NCBI GenBank assembly: GCA_038396605.1
Contig: CP121690.1
Coordinates: 652,500-716,499 of the forward strand
Direction: 5' to 3'
Origin: Eubacteriales bacterium mix99
GTDB lineage: Bacteria > Bacillota > Clostridia > Caldicoprobacterales > DTU083
DNA: 64,000 bases
Shown one piece after another: positions 26,701-39,531 of this stretch. Each line of letters starts with the position of its first letter. The stretch's first letter is position 1. The notes beneath the pieces are model-generated. The model was not told the DNA's origin, did not search any database, and saw only the letters and a program-made list of their open reading frames with translations. The translations under genes and the position numbers were made by a program.

Positions 26701-27990
26701 CCGGTCGTTTATTGGCGTCCTCACGTGATTGGATGACATCTATAAATATTTGGACTGCGGAGACCTCCGTCAGGGTTTTGCACGGGTCAAATGCGATGAC
26801 TGCAATCATGAATATTTATTGCCCTTTTCCTGAAAGAGAAGGTATTTCTGCCCATCATGTCATCAGAAACGAGTGATTGAATTTGGAGAATATTTATGCA
26901 AGGATGTACTGCTCCCGGCAGGGCACCGGCAGTGGGTATTCCGTATTCCTAAACGCATACGACCCTATTTTCTATAGGACAGGAGCCTTTTGGGGAAACT
27001 GAGCCGGTGTGCATGGAAGGTATTATCCTGTTACCTGAAAAGCGGTGTTTCCATGGAAGATCCCATACCCGGAGCTGTCATTGCAGTTCAGACCTTTGGC
27101 GATGTTCTGAATTTCAATCCCCATCTGCATATCATCTCTGCAACGGCTGCTTTGACAGGGCAGGTAATTTTATGACTGCTGTTATGCCAAACGCCAATGA
27201 CTTAGAGCCGCTGTTTCGACTGGAAGTACTGAATATGCTGAAGCAGGAAGGGAAAATTACAGAATCCGTCATAGAGAATATGGACACATGGCATCACAGC
27301 GGTTTCCATGTGTATTGCAGCGATGTCATCCTGCCCGGGGATGAGGAGAGCCTGGAGCGTCTGGCCCGCTATGTAATCCGGGCGCCCCTATCACAGGAAA
27401 GAATGGTCTATATGGGCGCATCCGAAGGGACCGGTATGGATCAGGTGATCTATACAGGAAAGAGGAACAGGGTGAAAAAGCGTTTTACCGCCCTTGACTG
27501 GCTGGCACGGCTGGTGACACATATCCCCAGCAAAGGGGAACAGCTTGTACGCTATTAGGGCTATTACAGCAATAAAGCCCGGGGCGTCCGCAAAGAAAAG
27601 AACGCTTCTTCCTCTGCAAAGCAGCTGAAAGCAGATATGCCTGACCCCTCTTTCAAAGAAAACGCTCTTTCCAGAAAAGCTTTCCGCAAAAACTGGGCCC
27701 GCCTTATTCAGAAAGTATACCATTCCGATCCCCTTATCTGCCCGAAATGCAAGGGAGAAACGAAGATCATTGCCTTTATTGAGGAAGAAGCGATCATTCA
27801 AAAAATATTGAAGCATTTAAATCTATGGGTACCTGGGAATCATGACCCTCCTCTCTTATCAAATGCTGTGGTTCCCGATATGCCGGCTGCGAATGATGCC
27901 CGATCATCCGACAATCATGAGACACTGCCTCAGATGCCTTTTGAAGACGAGTATTCTCAATTGTCACCCTATGAAGATCACACATTCTGA
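26690..27990 (+). pseudogene. IS91-family (Y2, rolling-circle) transposase, degenerate
   Basis: The order of motifs is that of IS91/IS801 transposases. AGRLLASSRDWMTS comes first, then YKYLDCGDLRQGFARVKCDDC with the zinc cysteines, FCPSCHQKRVIEFGE, NFNPHLHII (the HUH-type His pair), SGFHVYCSDVI and ARYVIRAPLSQERMVY, SRKAFRKNWARLIQKVYHSDPLICPKCKG, and ILKHLNLW. Lesions: TGA near 26831, TAG near 26975, a frameshift near 27140 and TAG at 27556. The element is inactive, yet its 3' end occurs in two further places in this window. Confidence 0.87.
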
Positions 27991-28219
27991 TCAGCGGCAT
28001 TTGCATGAATACACTGATTTCAGTCCAGACTGGTATAAGATCTGAGGTTTATTCCTGTATGGGCTTTTTTATATATATGGTCCTTCCCTTTATTTTTACT
28101 CCGAAGCTGTCCTGTGTTTCATTCAATGTACTGGTCATATTCTCTTGTTAATAGCAGTTGATTTCCAATTTTTGTATGATTTCAGGTGGCTTAACAGCCT
28201 ATTTTCTACCTGTTATACT
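27802..28219 (+). repeat. IS91-like 3' end, copy B
   Basis: The transposase C-terminus plus downstream non-coding end, near identical to 23573-23988. The last shared bases are ACCTGTTATACT. The non-coding part contains GTCCAGACTGGTATAAG shared with 19266. Nothing else is supportable in 28220-28452. Confidence 0.85.
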
Positions 28220-28452
28220 ATTATACCATGCAGACGGTGGGTTAGTCCAGTACTTTACACTAAAATTTCACAGAACCAAAATTTAAAATATTTTCTGTTA
28301 GAATTTTAATCTGTTAACAGACCTGCCCTGGTCTTGTGTTATTGTTACTCATATCATTAAAAAGAAATCGATATCCGATTCCTTTGCTTTCAACTTTTCG
28401 ATATTTATCCTGCCTTCTTTTGATCGGGCTGTGAATAGTAACAAACCGGAAA

Positions 28453-29687
28453 ATGAATGATATCTCGTTTGAGAATCTGAAGGCTATTTCCCCGGAGCTG
28501 GAAACGCTGCCTCATGGAGATACCCTGGCCCGCTTACTGGAAAAGATGGAGGTCAGACAAATACAGGATTGCATGATAGAACTCCTGAAGGATTTGATCC
28601 GCCGGAAGAAATTCCGGAACTATCTGAACCGCCATCAATTTCTGATTGCCATTGATGGCACACAGAAATTTTACCGGCACTACCAATGGGATCCGTAGGA
28701 GAGCGGGATGGTAAGGAATGCCGGGAAAGACGGCGAAGAGCAGCATTATGTTTATGTGCTGGAATCCGTTATTGTATTGAGCAACGGGATCACCCTTCCG
28801 TTTTATAGTGAGTTCCTGACGGCAGGCGACATGGCGCCTGTGCCCCGGAAATGGCAGACATGGAGGAGCAAACGATTGCCGGGGAGGCCAAAAAACAGGA
28901 TTGCGAAAGAAAGGCGTTTCGAAGGTTAGCGGCGAAGATCAAAGGGAGCTTTCGAAATACACCGATTACCATAGTAGTGGACGGATTGTATGCCTGCGGA
29001 CCCATTCTTCAAATCTGTAACCAATATCATTGGGGATTTATGATCAACCTGAAGCCCAAGGCAATGCCTGCCGTATGGGAAGATGCGCTGGGGCTTATGC
29101 TGCTGAAAAAGGAAAACCACCTGCGGGTACAGTGGGGTGGCTCTGCTAAGGAGGGAGGCCACATACAGGACTATCTCTGGTCCAACGGTATCGAGTACAG
29201 GTATCGGGACAGCCATGCTGTCTTTCGCTTTCTGAAACTCAATGTGGTCATTTGTTACGAAACATGGACGGAAGTACATAGCCGCAGCACGGGAGAAACG
29301 GAACACTGCGAGACGAGATACGCGTGGCTTTTTTCCGCTCCTTTGAAACGGAGCAATGTTTTCTATCGCTGCACGAAAATGGGCAGATACCGCTGGAAAA
29401 TTGAGAATGGTATTCTCAAGGAAAAGCATCAAGGATACCATTACGAACATTCCTACTCCTATACATGGGAGGCCATGGAAGGTTATCACTACCTGATGAA
29501 GATCGCTCATCTTCTGAATACCCTGGCAGCCAACAGCGAATTGCTCCATGATCGGGTGGAAGCACTGGGGATACGGGGATTCTTTCACAAATTATGGATC
29601 ATATGTAATACGACTTTCCTGGATCTTGAACGCGTTCATGAGGCTGCGGCCAGTTTGGGCCAATGGAGATTGGTGCCTGCCGGTTAA
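28453..29687 (+). pseudogene. DDE-type transposase (unclassified IS4-like), disrupted
   Basis: Reads MNDISFENLKAISPELETLPHGDTLARLLEKM, RHQFLIAIDGTQKFYRHYQW (first Asp), then a TAG at 28696. The frame resumes as EEQHYVYVLESVIVLSNGITLPFYSEFL. A frameshift near 28850 leads to PITIVVDGLYACGPILQICNQYHW (second Asp) and MGRYRWKIENGILKEKHQGYHYEH (Glu region). Two lesions make it inactive. The family name is uncertain. The 28220-28452 stretch upstream probably includes its left end. Confidence 0.75.
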
Positions 29688-30499: not shown

Positions 30500-31834
30500 C
30501 TAATAAGAACCTAGTTGAATATACCCACTACTCTTATCGGAAAAACTGTAGTAATAACTCAAAATTGTATAAACATCATATTCTGGATAATTTGTTGCAA
30601 TATATTGAGTACCCCATTGACTTAACACCCCCCCAAAAGCTGTGCCAATTTGTCCTTGGGTTCCAGCTCTATATTGGGCATCGAATACTCTCCCGCTTGA
30701 ATTCCTCATAAATTTACCAGAAACAGCATTAACAGCTGTATCAGTAGAGGGTTGGTTAGAATTAGCTACATAATGCTGATAGTTAGCAGGATTATCTGTT
30801 AAATGTGCCCCATAATCAGTTGCAGGCCTTCTTGGATAGGTTGCGTTATACCACGCATACGTTTTTATTGTTACTGCTCCAGCTTGTAAAGCTTTTGGCC
30901 TCCAAGAAGCATACCATTCGTTTGGCAATACACATTTAGCATAAGAATCAAACCCAATATTTGTCAAAACTCCAGTGCGTGTTATATATAACTTAAAAGT
31001 GGATGGAGGACTAGTAGCACTTTGTGGCTGGATAAGTTGACTACTTCTTCCCTGCTTTGCCTTCTCTAAATCAATCTGTTCTTGAGTGTTTATATTTTCA
31101 TTTTTAGGGACATTATTGATTTCTGGTTCAGGAAGAATGGCATCATCTTCAATTTCAGTGGGCTGTTGTATACTCTCTCCTTCTACTTTATCCTTTATAT
31201 CAGTACCACCATCATTTGAAGAAATGATATCATTATCGAAATTAACAATGATACCTTTTTCTCTTTGACTGACTACATTCTGAGCTTTTCTCTCTGCATC
31301 CGAATTGAAAGAATATCCAAATTTTTCTAACTTGCTAATGTCATAAACGTTTTCATGTCCGATTATATATTCTGTCTTATCCACACTGCCAATCGCTAAC
31401 AATTCATATTTAACACCGTTATAGAAAAACTCACTTTCTTCATAAACTTTATAATCAAAGCCTACATAAAAGTAACGAATGTCATCATATAATGAATTGT
31501 TTATGTCCAAAAAATAAGGTTCTATTTCCATAATATGCTCTGACGGTATTTCTTTTGCTTCATAGACTCGAATTGAATCTACAGAAAGGATGCCAGTACG
31601 GTTTTCTATTTGATATTGACTTGGGAAACCAACATAATCCTTTTGTCTTTCGGGCGAATATGATTCTACAAAAGAATCCCAATCCTTATTATTAACAGCA
31701 TTTGCATATTTGTTAATTACTTCCGGTATATTAACTATTGCAGTAGAATGAGACTCAGAACTCAAGTTTGACAGTAAAAAAGAGAAAAAGGAGCCGTAAG
31801 CCTTAGGTATGAGCAAGGTTGCGGCTTTTATCAT
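30500..31834 (-). CDS. SpoIID/LytB-domain protein, 5' end replaced by IS sequence (copy 1)
   Basis: 444 residues. The C-terminal domain is SpoIID-like (peptidoglycan-active in sporulation and related secreted proteins): YAKCVLPNEWYASWRPKALQAGAVTIKTYAWYNATYP, FDAQYRAGTQGQIGTAFGGVLSQWGTQYIA. The native C-terminus is kept. Codons 1-25 come from the insertion sequence (31761-31834). They read MIKAATLLIPKAYGSFFSFL, a hydrophobic stretch that could mimic a signal. The middle (30743-31760) is duplicated at 33777-34794. Expression would need a promoter in the IS. Confidence 0.72.
   Translation of the reverse strand: MIKAATLLIPKAYGSFFSFLLSNLSSESHSTAIVNIPEVINKYANAVNNKDWDSFVESYSPERQKDYVGFPSQYQIENRTGILSVDSIRVYEAKEIPSEHIMEIEPYFLDINNSLYDDIRYFYVGFDYKVYEESEFFYNGVKYELLAIGSVDKTEYIIGHENVYDISKLEKFGYSFNSDAERKAQNVVSQREKGIIVNFDNDIISSNDGGTDIKDKVEGESIQQPTEIEDDAILPEPEINNVPKNENINTQEQIDLEKAKQGRSSQLIQPQSATSPPSTFKLYITRTGVLTNIGFDSYAKCVLPNEWYASWRPKALQAGAVTIKTYAWYNATYPRRPATDYGAHLTDNPANYQHYVANSNQPSTDTAVNAVSGKFMRNSSGRVFDAQYRAGTQGQIGTAFGGVLSQWGTQYIATNYPEYDVYTILSYYYSFSDKSSGYIQLGSY
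30743..31760 (-). repeat. 1,018-bp direct repeat, copy 1
   Basis: The middle of the SpoIID-domain gene. I see no difference from 33777-34794 in the parts compared, and the encoded residues are the same. It starts AGTAGAGGG and ends AGACTCAGAA, exactly adjoining the IS1634-like element. Confidence 0.93.
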
Positions 31835-33776
31835 ATGAGAAGAAGTTGTAGTGAAAATTATCTTTTTTTTGCTTGTCCTAAACTTTTTTTAATTTCGGAT
31901 CGGGTAAGTCTCTTCTTTGTAAAATCGAAGCCCATTGCCTTACCGATTGCATCCGTTACATCTGACCTGTAATCAAAAAGATAGATATTTTGGGATTCAG
32001 GTGAGCAGGTAATGTTCTTCAGGGCATTGATGATAGCTTCGGGGGAGTACGCGCCACCAAACGTTTTTGGATCAGTCTGAGGATTACCAGCGATATATAA
32101 CAAATGAGGAAGTGCGCATGAATCCTGTCTTTACGGGAAACGTACACAGGCCGCGTTTCAAGATCACTTTTTGTAACACGGAAATTATCCTCAATTCGCC
32201 AGAGCCCGCGGTACATATCGATGATCCTGTCATCAGAGAATGTGTCGGATCCATCTTCATCGAACAGGTTTGTCACGATGCAGTAATAACCGTCATACTT
32301 TTCATCTTCCCTGAATTTCTCCATGTCGATACATGGCCGGCCTTTGGGAGCTTTTTTGATTTCACCTGTTTTCTTATCCACCTTGATATTCTTAACATAT
32401 CTGAGAGCCCCATAGGACGTGGCCCTTGTGTATGCAGACGGTGTTGAGGCGATACACTGGGCCTTTTTGAGCACAGCTTCCCGTTTCGCTTTGGAGCGGT
32501 CCGCATACTTCTTGTTATAGAAAACGATTTGCCGCTGATCCACAAGTACCTTCTTTTTATATGTTCTTCCGCCTTCCTTTAACATATCGACTTCTATCTC
32601 CCGCCTGATTACCCGGGACTTGCGCTTGTACTGATCACTGAACTGCTTGTAACCGGATTGATTATTAACATAATCCTTGAATTCTTTGCTTCCTCCCCGG
32701 ATCGTCTGGCTGAATACGTAGGAGCATTTGCCGCTTTCCAGGTAATAGATGTTGTTCCCGGTATTTTGGGCCGCATCAGCCACTGCGACAACTCTGCCGG
32801 ATTCATAGGCTCGTACAAGCTCTCCAATCATAGGCCTCAGGTGCAGCTTTTCCGAATTGTTACCAGGGAACAATTCGTAAGAAATCGGAATGCCATCCGC
32901 ATCCATGGCAAGGCCCAGCTGTACAATGGGATCGGGCCGGTGTTCCTTGGAAGGACCTTTTGCCCTCAGTTCGTCTTCCATATCAATCTCAAAGTAGTAA
33001 TTCGTCGCATCATAATATACCAGGCTGGTGTCCCGGCTGTATTGCTCTGTAATCCGCTTATGGATTTGAAGCTGTATGGCAGAATCGATCCCTGCATAAA
33101 AGCTCAGTGACCGGTATATGTCAATAAGGGAGAAATCATCTTTCTTCTCGAAATCAAAATAGGTGCTCCGATGCTCAAAGGTGCGTTTCTTTGATGCAGG
33201 TTCAAGAATCCGCGATATGACAAGCAGTTTCAATATGGTGCTTGTGTTGTAGTCGAAATTCCTGCCTCTCTGCCTGTTGAGAAGGAGCCGGTCCAATCCC
33301 AGCTCATAGTAGATCTTTAGAATGGCAATATATCCAAAATTTTTACGGCCGGCTGTATTTTCAGGGAGAACAGTGTCCTTACGTTCTTTTACGATATATT
33401 CCGCATCGTTTAAAGCCTTTTCTTTGTTCTTCTCCTCTACATAGGCCTTAAAGTGGGCAATGGGATCATCGTAAACTTTTTGAAGATCATCCAGATACCC
33501 GAAGGACTCGACAGTAGTACTGCCTGGATATTTCTTTCCTTTTTTCCGATAGCTTTGCGCCATGCTTAAGTATGTACGTCCAGTTTTTTTGTTTGTTACA
33601 GTTTTTAGATACATGACAAAACCTCTCCAAACGGTGTAATATATATCTATTATACCATATATCTCTACGATTGTCTACTATTATTTATCATAATTTTGGT
33701 TTAAAAAAAGCCCTGTAGCCTATCGGCTGCAAGGGGTTCAGGAATCGTTGTTCTGTTTTCTACTGTCAAAGAAGCG
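31761..33776 (-). mobile_element. IS1634-like insertion sequence flanked by 1-kb direct repeats (2,016 bp)
   Basis: Bounded precisely by the two 1,018-bp repeats. Just inside each end is an inverted TTTGACAGTA followed by A-rich sequence (31767 and, inverted, 33770), the terminal repeats. It carries one transposase gene with a shifted C-terminus. IS1634 relatives are known for long, variable target duplications, and this arrangement fits that behaviour. Confidence 0.85.
31858..33614 (-). CDS. IS1634-family transposase (needs a -1 frameshift)
   Basis: The first reading frame (33614-32019, 531 codons) has the IS1634 features: MYLKTVTNKKTGRTYLSMAQSYRKKGK, SLVYYDATNYYFE (first Asp), GRVVAVADAAQNTGNNIYYLESGKC (second Asp), and YDGYYCIVTNLF, then YRGLWRIEDNFRVTKSDLETRPVYV (Glu). 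The normal C-terminus (GGAYSPEAIINALKNITC ... FDFTKKRLTRSEIKKSLG) is encoded in the -1 frame down to 31858. The overlap contains C_CAA_AAA (32070-32064), a possible slippery site. Either programmed frameshifting or a one-base lesion explains it. Confidence 0.85.
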
Positions 33777-34886
33777 AGTAGAGGGTTGGTTAGAATTAGC
33801 TACATAATGCTGATAGTTAGCAGGATTATCTGTTAAATGTGCCCCATAATCAGTTGCAGGCCTTCTTGGATAGGTTGCGTTATACCACGCATACGTTTTT
33901 ATTGTTACTGCTCCAGCTTGTAAAGCTTTTGGCCTCCAAGAAGCATACCATTCGTTTGGCAATACACATTTAGCATAAGAATCAAACCCAATATTTGTCA
34001 AAACTCCAGTGCGTGTTATATATAACTTAAAAGTGGATGGAGGACTAGTAGCACTTTGTGGCTGGATAAGTTGACTACTTCTTCCCTGCTTTGCCTTCTC
34101 TAAATCAATCTGTTCTTGAGTGTTTATATTTTCATTTTTAGGGACATTATTGATTTCTGGTTCAGGAAGAATGGCATCATCTTCAATTTCAGTGGGCTGT
34201 TGTATACTCTCTCCTTCTACTTTATCCTTTATATCAGTACCACCATCATTTGAAGAAATGATATCATTATCGAAATTAACAATGATACCTTTTTCTCTTT
34301 GACTGACTACATTCTGAGCTTTTCTCTCTGCATCCGAATTGAAAGAATATCCAAATTTTTCTAACTTGCTAATGTCATAAACGTTTTCATGTCCGATTAT
34401 ATATTCTGTCTTATCCACACTGCCAATCGCTAACAATTCATATTTAACACCGTTATAGAAAAACTCACTTTCTTCATAAACTTTATAATCAAAGCCTACA
34501 TAAAAGTAACGAATGTCATCATATAATGAATTGTTTATGTCCAAAAAATAAGGTTCTATTTCCATAATATGCTCTGACGGTATTTCTTTTGCTTCATAGA
34601 CTCGAATTGAATCTACAGAAAGGATGCCAGTACGGTTTTCTATTTGATATTGACTTGGGAAACCAACATAATCCTTTTGTCTTTCGGGCGAATATGATTC
34701 TACAAAAGAATCCCAATCCTTATTATTAACAGCATTTGCATATTTGTTAATTACTTCCGGTATATTAACTATTGCAGTAGAATGAGACTCAGAAGCATAA
34801 ATATGCGACGCAGGAGTAAATATTGCCACCACCGTTATTACAATTACTAAATACTTAACAAACGTTTTTTTGGTAATTGACTTCAT
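33738..34886 (-). CDS. SpoIID-domain protein, 3'-truncated by IS (copy 2)
   Basis: It keeps the native start (ATG 34886 behind AAGGAGTGG). A signal peptide is present (MKSITKKTFVKYLVIVITVVAIFTPASHIYASES). Residues after that equal copy 1 up to NSNQPST, then the frame runs 13 codons into the IS and stops. The last quarter of the SpoIID domain is lost, so activity is unlikely. An IS21 element sits ~40 bp upstream and probably separates it from its original promoter. Confidence 0.8.
   Translation of the reverse strand: MKSITKKTFVKYLVIVITVVAIFTPASHIYASESHSTAIVNIPEVINKYANAVNNKDWDSFVESYSPERQKDYVGFPSQYQIENRTGILSVDSIRVYEAKEIPSEHIMEIEPYFLDINNSLYDDIRYFYVGFDYKVYEESEFFYNGVKYELLAIGSVDKTEYIIGHENVYDISKLEKFGYSFNSDAERKAQNVVSQREKGIIVNFDNDIISSNDGGTDIKDKVEGESIQQPTEIEDDAILPEPEINNVPKNENINTQEQIDLEKAKQGRSSQLIQPQSATSPPSTFKLYITRTGVLTNIGFDSYAKCVLPNEWYASWRPKALQAGAVTIKTYAWYNATYPRRPATDYGAHLTDNPANYQHYVANSNQPSTRFFDSRKQNNDS
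33777..34794 (-). repeat. 1,018-bp direct repeat, copy 2
   Basis: Second copy of the SpoIID gene middle; see 30743-31760. Beyond 34794 the sequence continues into the native 5' end of the gene, so this side is the undisturbed upstream half. Confidence 0.93.
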
Positions 34887-35088
34887 AACAAACCACTCCT
34901 TCATTTAATACCTGGCATTTTCAATTGCTGAGTATTCCGGTTCCGGTGACACCACCTGTCCGGTATTAGGAAACCGTCATTCCGGAATAACGGAAACCAC
35001 GATTCCGGTAGTGGAAACCGTTTATAAATATCCTTTATAATGTATCCATGCACCGTTGGTGTAAATACATTTTAAAGGAAGTCACACC

Positions 35089-36645
35089 ATGACCAAATAC
35101 CGAGAGATTCTTAGATTATCTCATCTGGGGCTCAGCCAGCAGAGCATTGCAGACAGCTGCAGTGTCTCAAAGAAAACGGTCAATCGGGTTCTTAAGCGGG
35201 CAAAGGATATTCAGCTTTCCTGGCCGCTTGAAGCGAACCAGACTGATCAGGTATTGGCAGATATATTGTTTCCGTCTGCCAATAAGCATTCGGCATCTTC
35301 GCAAAAGCGTATGCCGGATTTCAACTACATCCGCAAGGAGTTGCTCCGCAATGGGGTCAATAAAAAGCTCCTGTGGACGGAATACATGGAAGAGTGCCGT
35401 TTAGCAGGCGAGAACCCGCTTATGTATTCCCAGTTTTGCTATTACATCCAGCAGGATGAGCAGAAACGCCGTGCAACAATGCATATCGACCGTAAACCCG
35501 GCGAACAGATCGAAGTAGACTGGGCCGGAGATCCGGCGCACATCATTGATCCGGATACCGGTGAAATCATCGACGCATGGCTGTTTGTTGGTGTTATGAC
35601 CTACAGCATGTATCCTTATGTGGAGGCTTTTATTAACGAGAAGCAAAACGCATGGATTTCTGCCCATGTCCATATGTACGAATACTTTGGCGGTGTCGCT
35701 AAGATTCTTGTACCGGACAACTGCAAAACAGCCGTTATACACAATAAGGACTGGTATAACCAGCAGGTCAACACAGTTTACCATGAAATGGCTGAGCACT
35801 ATGGCACAGCCATCATCCCAGCCCGGGTCAGGGCACCCAAGGACAAGCCGAATGCGGAAGGCAGTGTGAATGTCATTTCCACCTGGATTACCGCCGCATT
35901 ACGCAACGAACAGTTCTTCTCAGTGGTCGAATTAAATCGTGCTATCCATGAAAAACTGGAAGAATTCAGCCATCGCCCTTTTCAAAAGAAAGAGGGCAGC
36001 CGGTTTGAAATCTTCCGCAACGAAGAACTGCCATTGCTGGCTCCCTTACCTGCGTCCCCTTACGAACTGGCGGAATGGAAACAAGCCACCGTTCAGTTCA
36101 ATTATCACATATCTTGCAACGGAATGCTATATTCAGTTCCGTATGAATACATAAAACGCAAGGTTGATGTACGGATAACCGATAAGACTATTGAGATTTT
36201 CTATAACCATAACCGCATTGCCTCCCACCGCCGTCTGTATGGCCGTAAGGGGCAGTATGCCACCATTGTGGAGCACATGCCGGAAGACCATCAGAAATAC
36301 CTGGAATGGAACGGCAATCGATTCCGCAGATGGGCTGAGCGGATTGGTGCCAATACGTACCAGGTCGTGGATGCCATCCTTACCTCCAAATGTGTGGAAC
36401 AGCAATCTTATCGCAGCTGTATGGGGCTACTGAAGCTGGCAGACAAATATTCAGCTGACAGACTTGAAGCCTCCTGCAAAAAGGCCCTTAGTTACACGGC
36501 CTCGCCCAGCTATAAGAGCATAAAGAACATACTCTCTGCCGGGCGGGATAAAACAGCTGATACGTCCGTCGACAAAACGACGGAGTCCGAAACCAGACAG
36601 AACAGATACGCCATCACCAGAGGCGCTGATTATTACAGGAGGTAA
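35089..36645 (+). CDS. istA: IS21 transposase IstA
   Basis: 518 residues. The N-terminal HTH (LSQQSIADSCSVSKKTVNRVLKRA) is followed by the DDE domain (QIEVDWAGDPAHIID, ILVPDNCKTAVIH, RAPKDKPNAEGSVNVISTWI with the Glu) and a basic C-terminal region. Intact. It ends in TAA just before the istB Shine-Dalgarno/ATG. Confidence 0.93.
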   Translation: MTKYREILRLSHLGLSQQSIADSCSVSKKTVNRVLKRAKDIQLSWPLEANQTDQVLADILFPSANKHSASSQKRMPDFNYIRKELLRNGVNKKLLWTEYMEECRLAGENPLMYSQFCYYIQQDEQKRRATMHIDRKPGEQIEVDWAGDPAHIIDPDTGEIIDAWLFVGVMTYSMYPYVEAFINEKQNAWISAHVHMYEYFGGVAKILVPDNCKTAVIHNKDWYNQQVNTVYHEMAEHYGTAIIPARVRAPKDKPNAEGSVNVISTWITAALRNEQFFSVVELNRAIHEKLEEFSHRPFQKKEGSRFEIFRNEELPLLAPLPASPYELAEWKQATVQFNYHISCNGMLYSVPYEYIKRKVDVRITDKTIEIFYNHNRIASHRRLYGRKGQYATIVEHMPEDHQKYLEWNGNRFRRWAERIGANTYQVVDAILTSKCVEQQSYRSCMGLLKLADKYSADRLEASCKKALSYTASPSYKSIKNILSAGRDKTADTSVDKTTESETRQNRYAITRGADYYRR

Positions 36646-36731
36646 ATGACCATGACCAATCAAAGTACGATTGATAAATTAATTGAAATGCGTCTGACAT
36701 CCATGTCAAATGCATTCATCAACCAGCTAAA

Positions 36732-38368
36732 CACAACTTTTTGGTTTTTTAGGTAGCCTGCCTCTCACACCTCGACAGCCATTTTAGTATTAAGCTGATT
36801 GAATAGAGTTTGATGACTTTTTTTGCAATTGCATACGATCCAACAGCCGCGACGTTTATTCGCTTTTACCATTTTTGCATCAAGAATACAGTCCTGAGCC
36901 GACTTCCCCTTAACTCCGGCTACAGCATCCTCAAAGTTTTTATGTATTAGAGCACTGACAAGCATAATGAATGCTAGACCTTGTGTCTTGTAAAAATCGG
37001 CCTGATACAGAGCATTGTAGTCTGCCTTGTTCTTGAAATAGTTGTAATATGTCTCGATAGACCAACGCTTCTTGTAGAGCTCATAAATTTCCTGGGGTGT
37101 CTGTGCTGTCAAACTCGTCTGCAGTACGGTAACTCCCATAAAATCTTTCAGCTTATTGAAGTTTTCATCGGTATACGACTTATCCCCTCGTGCCAGGTGG
37201 CGGAGATAGTTTGCCTGCTCCGTTGAAGCCTCGTTCAGATCCCTGAACGTAAGAACTCTTTGCCCGTCTGTTATCTGTTCCCTATACTCAACCACGGAAG
37301 CTTTGCGTCCTTTTTGGTACATAAATCTTCCTGTCATCTCAAGACTGCTGACGGCCATCTTGCAGGTTGTGAGGTTTTTGGCAAGCGGTATAATGTATGA
37401 GTTGCCATTTGACGTGAACAGATTGAGGTTGTCGGCACTGTAGAATCCACGATCGACAATAAAGAGCAAATCCTTTAACTCAACCTGAACAAGCAAATCC
37501 TTAACGCTGACTTTATCCTGGCTCCCGCCTTCATATATTCTGGAAATAAGGGGCATACCGGTGTTAACGTCATATGCCATGAGAAGATTGATCTGTGGTT
37601 CTCCGATTTTCCAGAATTTATATCCCTTTTCAGCAAGATCGTTTTCCATAGAGCCACAGCCTATTACGTGCCCATCAATTGCGACTTGCCCTGAGCACTC
37701 AGTAACAAGTTTTTCTTCCAGATGGAGTATTTTTCCCTGGCGACGGCCCAGGCTATCATACAGAGAAGATAATGCGGCGTATCCCAGCTTCAGGGAAGGG
37801 TATTTCAGGGATAGATAGCTCATTTCGTAGTACTTATGTATATCTTTCATGTACAAAAAACCATGTATATAATGAATCAGTGCCACCACATATATTCTGA
37901 GGGCATCTACTTGATTGAAGCATTCTTGAAGAAGCAATAGCGTTTTCTGAGAATTTGAAAGGACAACCGCATATTCGCCAAATTCAAGAGTGGTTATTTC
38001 CTCGTCACAATTAAATCCGTTATTTGGGACGAATCCGACGCCATCCAGGATTGTTCCGATTTCTTTTCCCATTTTTGTTCGTCGTTTTCCGTCAGATCCT
38101 TTTACGCTGGAATATTCATAAACATAGTAGCGCCCGGAAATAAGTTTCACCATCGTGCCTTTTGGCTTGAATTTTAGTATGGATTCTGGCACAGAATATT
38201 TACCCACAGCCAACACCTCGTATACCTAAAATATACCTAAATTATACCACAATTTTTTTGTAATGTCAATAAGAAAAAGCGCCGATATTGCTGATGAAAT
38301 GGCGCTTTTCACACATTATTTGAACTATGTTCTATCCCGATACATACCTAAAAATCATTGTTGGTGTG
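36732..38368 (-). mobile_element. IS4-like insertion sequence nested in istB (1,637 bp)
   Basis: Both junctions are readable because istB continues across. A 6-bp duplication GCTAAA (36726-36731 and 38369-38374) flanks ends that begin CACAAC and CACACC and share TTTTTAGGTA a little further in. Very recent relative to the host element. Confidence 0.88.
36765..38216 (-). CDS. IS4-like DDE transposase
   Basis: 483 residues and intact. It has GQVAIDGHVIGC (first Asp), LLFIVDRGFYSADNL (second Asp), and YELYKKRWSIETYYNYFKNKADYN (the Y-(2)-R-(3)-E-(6)-K type motif of IS4/IS1634-like enzymes). The C-terminus is basic and Cys-containing (GCWIVCNCKKSHQ). Family-level naming between IS4 and IS1634 is uncertain. 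Confidence 0.85.
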   Translation of the reverse strand: MLAVGKYSVPESILKFKPKGTMVKLISGRYYVYEYSSVKGSDGKRRTKMGKEIGTILDGVGFVPNNGFNCDEEITTLEFGEYAVVLSNSQKTLLLLQECFNQVDALRIYVVALIHYIHGFLYMKDIHKYYEMSYLSLKYPSLKLGYAALSSLYDSLGRRQGKILHLEEKLVTECSGQVAIDGHVIGCGSMENDLAEKGYKFWKIGEPQINLLMAYDVNTGMPLISRIYEGGSQDKVSVKDLLVQVELKDLLFIVDRGFYSADNLNLFTSNGNSYIIPLAKNLTTCKMAVSSLEMTGRFMYQKGRKASVVEYREQITDGQRVLTFRDLNEASTEQANYLRHLARGDKSYTDENFNKLKDFMGVTVLQTSLTAQTPQEIYELYKKRWSIETYYNYFKNKADYNALYQADFYKTQGLAFIMLVSALIHKNFEDAVAGVKGKSAQDCILDAKMVKANKRRGCWIVCNCKKSHQTLFNQLNTKMAVEV

Positions 38369-39531
38369 GCTAAACGACTCCAGGATGAAGGATATCCCTT
38401 TCGAAGACCGTTTCTCCATGCTGGTAGACATTGAATACAGCAATCGAAAGAACAACCGCTTAAAAAGGTTGATCAAGAATGCTGGATTCGACCAACCGGA
38501 AGCGTACATCGGAGATATCGATTACAAATCCGGCCGCAAGCTGAACCGGTCTCTTATCAGCAGACTGGCGACTTGCGAATATATCATTGAACACCGAAAT
38601 CTTTTTATTACCGGTGCAACAGGCAGCGGTAAGACATACATGGCTTGTGCTTTTGGCATAGAGGCGTGTAAACACTATTTTACGACCAGGTATGTCAGAC
38701 TTCCCGACCTTCTAATAGAACTGGAGATGGCCAGGAATGAAGGCACTTACAAGAAGGTTCAGGCCAAATATGCCAATCCCATTCTTCTCATCATTGATGA
38801 ATGGCTGCTGTTGAAACCGACTGAGACAGAGCAGCACGACATCCTGGAGTTGCTTCACAGGAGGCGGAAAAGATCATCAACCATCTTCTGCTCCCAGTAC
38901 CATGATAATGGTTGGTTTGATCAACTTGGCGGGGAGTCCAGCCCTCTCGCAGAAGCAATCCTTGACCGCATCAAATATGATGCCTATAAAATCAGCATAA
39001 CCAGCACGGATCCGAACAACTACAGATCCATGCGTGAGGTATATGGACTGGACAAGTCCTTAAGCGAGTAAACTCGCATGCGGTTTCCCAGTTCCGGACT
39101 CTCGGTTTCCAATTTTCCGGAACTGCGGTTTCACCGCACCAGAATATTCACAATTGCGACACAAAAAGTTAAAATTCATTTAATTATACATATAATATCC
39201 CCTCATTAACAATATTATAATTTTATTCTAGTGATTTCTATTATATATGCAAAATATAAATAGTCAAATATGATTTAAGACAAGATCTGAAGAGTTGGTA
39301 TAAGAAATGCAAAAAATCTGAGGGACAGCACATGTTTTTATAAAAATAGCATTATTAGAACTATATTTCTTTAAAAGTAAATATATGGGTGTTACTGGGT
39401 TAAATTAAGCCAGAGAACCAACTGTAATCCATCAGGACAGCGACATTTGACTAAAAATGGGTAACACGAATAGACATACACTAGGTATGCCAATTAATTC
39501 CAATTGGTAATCTTATGAAAAGCCGGTCTGT

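Follow-up and report, generated by a model that had tools for sequence, protein, structure and literature searches.

A 1,018-bp target duplication by an IS1634-family insertion sequence, and the promoter-associated junctions of its relatives

The window element and its copies in the genome

The window analyzed here, a 64,000-nucleotide stretch of the genome of Eubacteriales bacterium mix99 (contig CP121690.1, positions 652,500 to 716,499), contains a SpoIID/LytB-domain gene that is split by a complete insertion sequence (IS) (Table 1). In profile searches, the gene matches both TIGR02669 and TIGR02870, in each case below the curated cut-off. The IS is bounded on either side by a copy of a 1,018-bp direct repeat. 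Base-by-base comparison of the two copies reveals 0 mismatches, the repeat cannot be extended on either side, and both repeat/IS junctions are flush, so that the identical repeats lie exactly at the IS ends, with the very coordinates given in an earlier sequence-only reading of this DNA. When the IS and one repeat are removed in silico, a single 456-aa ORF with a SpoIID/LytB-like region is restored, as expected if the gene was single before the insertion; the interruption of a SpoIID-domain gene, claimed in the same reading, is thereby borne out.

Table 1. Coordinates of the IS, its repeats and the interrupted gene in the window
Feature	Position	Strand	Description	Basis or note
Complete IS1634-family IS	31761..33776		2,016 bp; transposase on minus strand	Ends from identity with 4 other full genome copies; NF033559
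Direct repeat, copy 1	30743..31760	-	1,018 bp; adjoins IS end at transposase 3' terminus	Site x = 31760/31761
Direct repeat, copy 2	33777..34794	-	1,018 bp; adjoins IS end at transposase start	Site y = 33776/33777
Transposase ORF, window copy	32019..33614	-	531 aa; D202, D280, E475 from ATG	Frameshift-shortened
Leftover transposase C-terminal part	31858..32103	-	Different frame	Comparison with 603-aa ORF of sibling L002
Terminal inverted repeat, transposase-3' end	31761..31792	.	CTCAAG-TTTGACAGTA...	
Terminal inverted repeat, transposase-start end	33745..33776	.	CGCTTC-TTTGACAGTA... (minus strand)	
Interrupted SpoIID/LytB-domain gene, 3' portion	30500..31760	-	Includes repeat copy 1	
Interrupted SpoIID/LytB-domain gene, 5' portion	33777..34904	-	Includes repeat copy 2	

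The transposase belongs to the IS1634 family (347.7 bits against NF033559, with a cut-off of 100), in agreement with the earlier designation of the element as IS1634-like. The DDE residues, D222, D300 and E495 in the 551-residue frame (equivalent to the ATG-based positions in Table 1), are conserved in the aligned transposases, with a long spacer preceding the E. The conserved ends of the family are C-----YT (PMC2266710), and the ends of the window IS, CTCAAGTT and CGCTTCTT, fit this pattern. The length of 2,016 bp is at the upper edge of the typical family size (1,500-2,000 bp).

The same 2,016 bp are present at four further sites in the 3.13-Mb genome, in addition to truncated copies, and the ends of the IS are thus fixed independently. 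All five full copies are flanked by exact and flush direct repeats, of 61, 105, 148, 853 and 1,018 bp, and each copy has its own, different repeat, which indicates target duplication as opposed to an old tandem repeat; a chance origin of the flush repeats is excluded. On the strength of these alignments, the 1,018-bp repeats of the window are confirmed as a target duplication generated by an IS1634-family DDE element, and the proposal of a very long duplication made from the window alone holds. The window copy differs from its four siblings, and is the only one to do so, by single-base indels at two places (IS positions 103 and 300), because of which the last part of its transposase is out of frame (531 aa compared to 603 aa in the intact form). 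This copy may be inactive, or the indels may be sequencing errors and not decay.

The region around the element is an IS-dense stretch. Several transposase-like ORFs and fragments adjoin it on the left (27007-29687). To the right (35089-39071), there is an IS21-type pair, consisting of a transposase ORF (35089-36645) and an ORF for a putative IstB-like ATPase (38358-39071), that appears to be split by a distant IS1634/IS4-like transposase gene (36765-38216) represented by four copies in the genome.

Long direct repeats among relatives

Relatives of the transposase were sought in the phylum to which the window belongs, and about 110 copies were fetched with their flanks. The ends of the elements were set by the shared inverted repeat of the form C-N5-core, and copies for which the ends could not be set were left out; the first set and a later replicate set of 21 copies together comprise 102 copies. 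Exact or near-exact direct repeats are found at 88 of the 102, including 74 independent copies in the first set, and range from 14 to 1,253 bp, with a median of 130 bp. The longest, of about 1,253 bp with 99.7% identity, is in genome G416. The sequence-only reading considered a duplication of about 1 kb extreme, which is correct relative to the published range of 8-514 bp (PMC2266710), but such a length is not unique, given this repeat and the 853-bp one in the genome of the window. Neither of the observations that the same reading named as evidence against itself was made: other copies are not confined to short duplications (61-853 bp in the sister copies, in addition to the survey median), and there is no sign of a tandem duplication predating the insertion, although a search of 13 genomes of its family for a counterpart of the window gene free of the IS came up empty.

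Nearly all repeats (86 of 88) are at least 30 bp long, that is, approximately the span from -35 to -10. The dearth of shorter ones (2 of 88) may reflect either shielding by the polymerase or selection for retention of the promoter. There is no measurable repeat at 14 of the 102 copies, seven in each set. In one of these, at position 2908042 of G483 (first set), a 161-bp repeat is seen on the far side of what appears to be an insertion; decay or rearrangement could account for the rest, or they could be true exceptions. Long, variable repeats are the usual outcome in both major clades sampled in the transposase tree, which makes the trait old within these clades. A scan of genome contigs yielded only three distant relatives, and a scan of viral contigs yielded none.

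Some loci show a more complex organization. In G534 (L127, C1:3595080-3599036), two IS copies flank a 230-bp segment identical to the repeat of another copy in that genome, and the IS-230 bp-IS pair as a whole has its own outer repeat of 209 bp; the IS-repeat-IS unit seems to have moved as one element, again making a long duplication. At four other loci (L125, L146, L172 and L183), one copy of the repeat is interrupted by an insertion of 1.6-2 kb with an overlap of approximately 6-19 bp, possibly the short target duplications of other elements.

Asymmetric junctions and promoters

The two junctions of the surveyed elements are different. At site x, the flank at the transposase-3' end, the promoter strand read toward the IS spells TATAAT, with an exact match in 21 of 74 copies against 0.06 expected. 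At site y, no such box is seen in the first set, and there is a preference for a pyrimidine at -2 (63 of 74) and C at +1 (31 of 60), so that y is a weakly specified YN/C site (the slash marks the junction), usually located 30 to a few hundred bp, and at most about 1,250 bp, upstream of the promoter. In clade A (inverted-repeat core TTTGACA), at least four of the six TATAAT bases are present in 42 of 45 copies. Clade B and other lineages show a tendency for the junction to lie one base inside the box (TATAA/T), together with a looser match (22 of 50 by a class-aware -10 score). In both clades, the frequency of TTGACA upstream of the -10 boxes peaks at a 17-bp spacer. The end of a complete promoter, defined as at least 9 of 12 consensus bases with a spacer of 16-18, coincides with the junction in 19 of 45 clade A copies and lies one base past it in 10 of 45 clade B copies, compared to at most a few at other offsets. 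Furthermore, a -35 box with at least four of six matching bases accompanies 16 of the 21 used exact TATAAT sites versus 105 of the 437 unused intergenic TATAAT sites in the same flanks (p = 1.5e-6). In 63 of 73 cases, site x does not fall within an ORF of 100 aa or more. The closest gene downstream of it has a direction of transcription leading away from the IS in 58 of 72, with the start codon at a median distance of about 117 bp.

Taken as read from the genome sequences, these junctions show that, in the surveyed clades, the x end is attached to the target at the downstream edge of a sigma-A-type -10 box or no more than about one base from it, and that the DNA between x and y, with y upstream at a variable distance, is duplicated with fixed polarity. 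The position of the x junction implies that promoters guide the element to its site and set its orientation, and promoter targeting is well supported by the aligned flanks. Because promoter DNA is present on both sides of the IS, the host gene retains, in nearly all cases, an entire promoter within the repeat copy attached to it, which suggests why the element is tolerated. The pattern may also owe some of its sharpness to selection for insertions that survive by sparing the promoter.

Predictions for the replicate set (n = 21) were fixed before it was read. As predicted, there are long repeats (14 of 21), -10 matches (11 of 21, p = 5.5e-8) and genes oriented away from the IS (9 of 12). The predicted presence of a -35 box at more than 35% of the -10 matches was not observed (3 of 11). 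In a post hoc reading, two further copies have TTGACA in register with a one-base-shifted box, and the shift typical of clade B offers a partial, post hoc explanation for this shortfall. The contrast between x and y is less clean than in the first set, with 5 of 21 y flanks reaching four of the six TATAAT bases on one strand.

In the lineage of the window copy itself (n = 5), evidence of promoter targeting is weak. Site x of the window copy, TCAGAA, is intragenic and not promoter-like, and clear promoters are lacking at most of the four sister copies, one or two of which are near promoter-like sites: in one copy of the lineage, a perfect TTGACA is combined with a good -10 box whose end is 3 bp away from the junction, and another has a weaker promoter that is 8 bp off. 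Thus, the window demonstrates the long duplication, whereas the promoter rule comes from relatives. The G639 lineage (L162 and L163; inverted-repeat core TTTGTCA) has repeats of 267 and 305 bp at x sites that are not AT-rich, indicating that long duplication and choice of promoter are separable; here, a different target rule is combined with the same long duplication.

Two plasmid-borne relatives illustrate how control regions are preserved. In the Ligilactobacillus salivarius plasmid pBNS11 (L198), ATTATAGCACAAG flanks the element on both sides within the ermC promoter. In another strain of this species, plasmid p2 (NZ_CP137610.1) has the same region with no IS and a single copy of this sequence, and the pBNS11 flanks overlap by exactly its 13 bp; hence, the repeat was made by the insertion. 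On the promoter strand, the site reads TGCTATAAT, an extended -10 box, and the 13-bp repeat leaves such a box adjoining ermC. The copy on a Carnobacterium maltaromaticum plasmid has TTGACA-N17-TATATT at the junction and sits between a PTS gene and a deoR-type gene that are read in opposite directions. Both neighboring genes stay intact, because the control region they share lies within the repeat, which is about 320 bp long as judged by eye and carries an additional insertion in one of its copies.

Candidate mechanism, alternatives and known systems

We consider it fairly probable that the two IS ends join the target at two unequal, widely separated places, namely x at a promoter and y upstream of it, with the promoter duplicated as a result. 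The actual target would be the RNA polymerase holoenzyme on the promoter, probably in the open complex, and the IS strand would be attached to the template strand at the -7/-6 bond. This part of the template strand lies inside the bubble opened by RNA polymerase; the promoter bound by the polymerase is a likely substrate because the attacked bond would be in melted DNA. The second strand transfer would occur on the opposite strand, upstream and with no geometric coupling to the first, and the intervening segment might be copied, before or after the second joining, by strand-displacement synthesis that starts at the 3' end of the first target nick. Subsequent recombination between the repeats could remove the IS precisely. 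Both the role of RNA polymerase and the strand-displacement synthesis are what we infer from the junction sequences. The binding of the beta clamp by an IS1634-family transposase (PMC4549789) would fit the involvement of a polymerase. Widely staggered cuts or replication-based insertion, the options raised in the sequence-only reading, fairly describe the second (y) step but miss the asymmetry, which took a survey to see, given that in the surveyed clades x is joined at the -10 box. This asymmetry, with one end promoter-specific and the other not, makes the question of mechanism directly testable, provides positional markers of sigma-A promoters in unstudied genomes, and points to a route of insertion in which the length of the duplication is independent of transposase geometry.

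Alternatively, the transposase itself could recognize an AT-rich, TATAAT-like hexamer without any contribution of RNA polymerase, the surviving insertions being mostly intergenic because the others are harmful. The targets of the family have indeed been described as AT-rich tracts of 5-6 bp (PMC2266710), the x sites of clade B are loosely AT-rich, and the x sites are mostly intergenic, where harm is least. A hexamer alone, however, accounts neither for the much greater frequency of -35 boxes at used compared to unused TATAAT sites nor for the TTGACA peak at exactly 17 bp, and we regard this explanation as rather unlikely. A pre-existing tandem duplication, or an assembly artefact, with the IS inserted at its junction, is extremely improbable and was rejected: although the lack of an IS-free version of the window gene among the 13 genomes of the family leaves it some room, this scenario is at odds with the different flush repeats at every full genome copy and at most surveyed copies, with the single-copy, IS-free plasmid site, and with the intact ORF obtained by collapsing the window site.

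Insertion could also be coupled to the replication fork: one end would be joined to the duplex near the fork and the other to the lagging-strand template left exposed behind the fork, which would set the orientation as well as the repeat length. Targeting of this kind appeared strong at first, with the transposase opposing replication in 47 of 59 placed copies (47:12, p = 5e-6), and beta-clamp binding in the family is compatible with it. However, the direction of most promoters matches that of replication, and the gene next to the IS remains oriented away from it in about half of the 12 exceptions; promoter orientation thus explains most of the bias, and fork targeting was rejected as its main source. 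Nor does the fork predict a match to the -10 and -35 boxes at one-base precision. As an account of the whole process, fork coupling is decidedly improbable, although it could apply to the second joining step. Joining at the promoter, with an independent upstream step, remains the preferred reading.

Long, variable duplications by IS1549 and IS1634 were reportedly described in 1998-1999 and thus have been known for more than 25 years. IS1634 of Mycoplasma mycoides and IS1549 of Mycobacterium smegmatis have a transposase of the same family as the window IS and, as here, long repeats that vary in length between copies. In these two elements, the repeats are 8-514 bp long, compared to 5-6 bp in the rest of the family, and a 2008 family study noted the lack of any proposed mechanistic model for the long duplications (PMC2266710). 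The repeats described here are longer, up to 1,018 bp in the window and more in G416. The 5-6 bp repeats of most members are not seen in the genome of the window (61-1,018 bp), but this feature does not define the family, given that IS1634 and IS1549 differ in the same way. ISGka5, ISPfe2 and Acidiphilium IS1634-1 also share the DDE transposase family but, unlike the window IS, make 6-bp duplications (PMC8024623; PMC3281130; PMC4549789). In the related elements surveyed here, the proposed promoter-directed insertion is supported by one junction at the -10 box with a -35 box at a spacer of 16-18, the replicate set agreeing as to the -10 but not the -35 box. The open-licence literature searched, which lacks both original reports on IS1634 and IS1549, contains no mention of the junction asymmetry or promoter targeting; the window IS is a member of a known family with a behavior that is new as far as this literature shows.

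We see about an even chance that guidance by the RNA polymerase holoenzyme applies to much of the IS1634 family, with attack at -7/-6, a second joining upstream, and a promoter that is both duplicated and kept. If so, the long variable repeats reported in 1998-1999 would be supplied with the missing mechanism. Targeting through the transcription machinery would then also have a bacterial counterpart, one in which the damaged promoter is spared as part of the process. The yeast retrotransposon Ty3 likewise takes the transcription machinery as its landmark and integrates beside transcription starts, accurate to the base; it differs in relying on RNA polymerase III and a retroviral-type integrase, and in making a short, fixed duplication that does not include the promoter.
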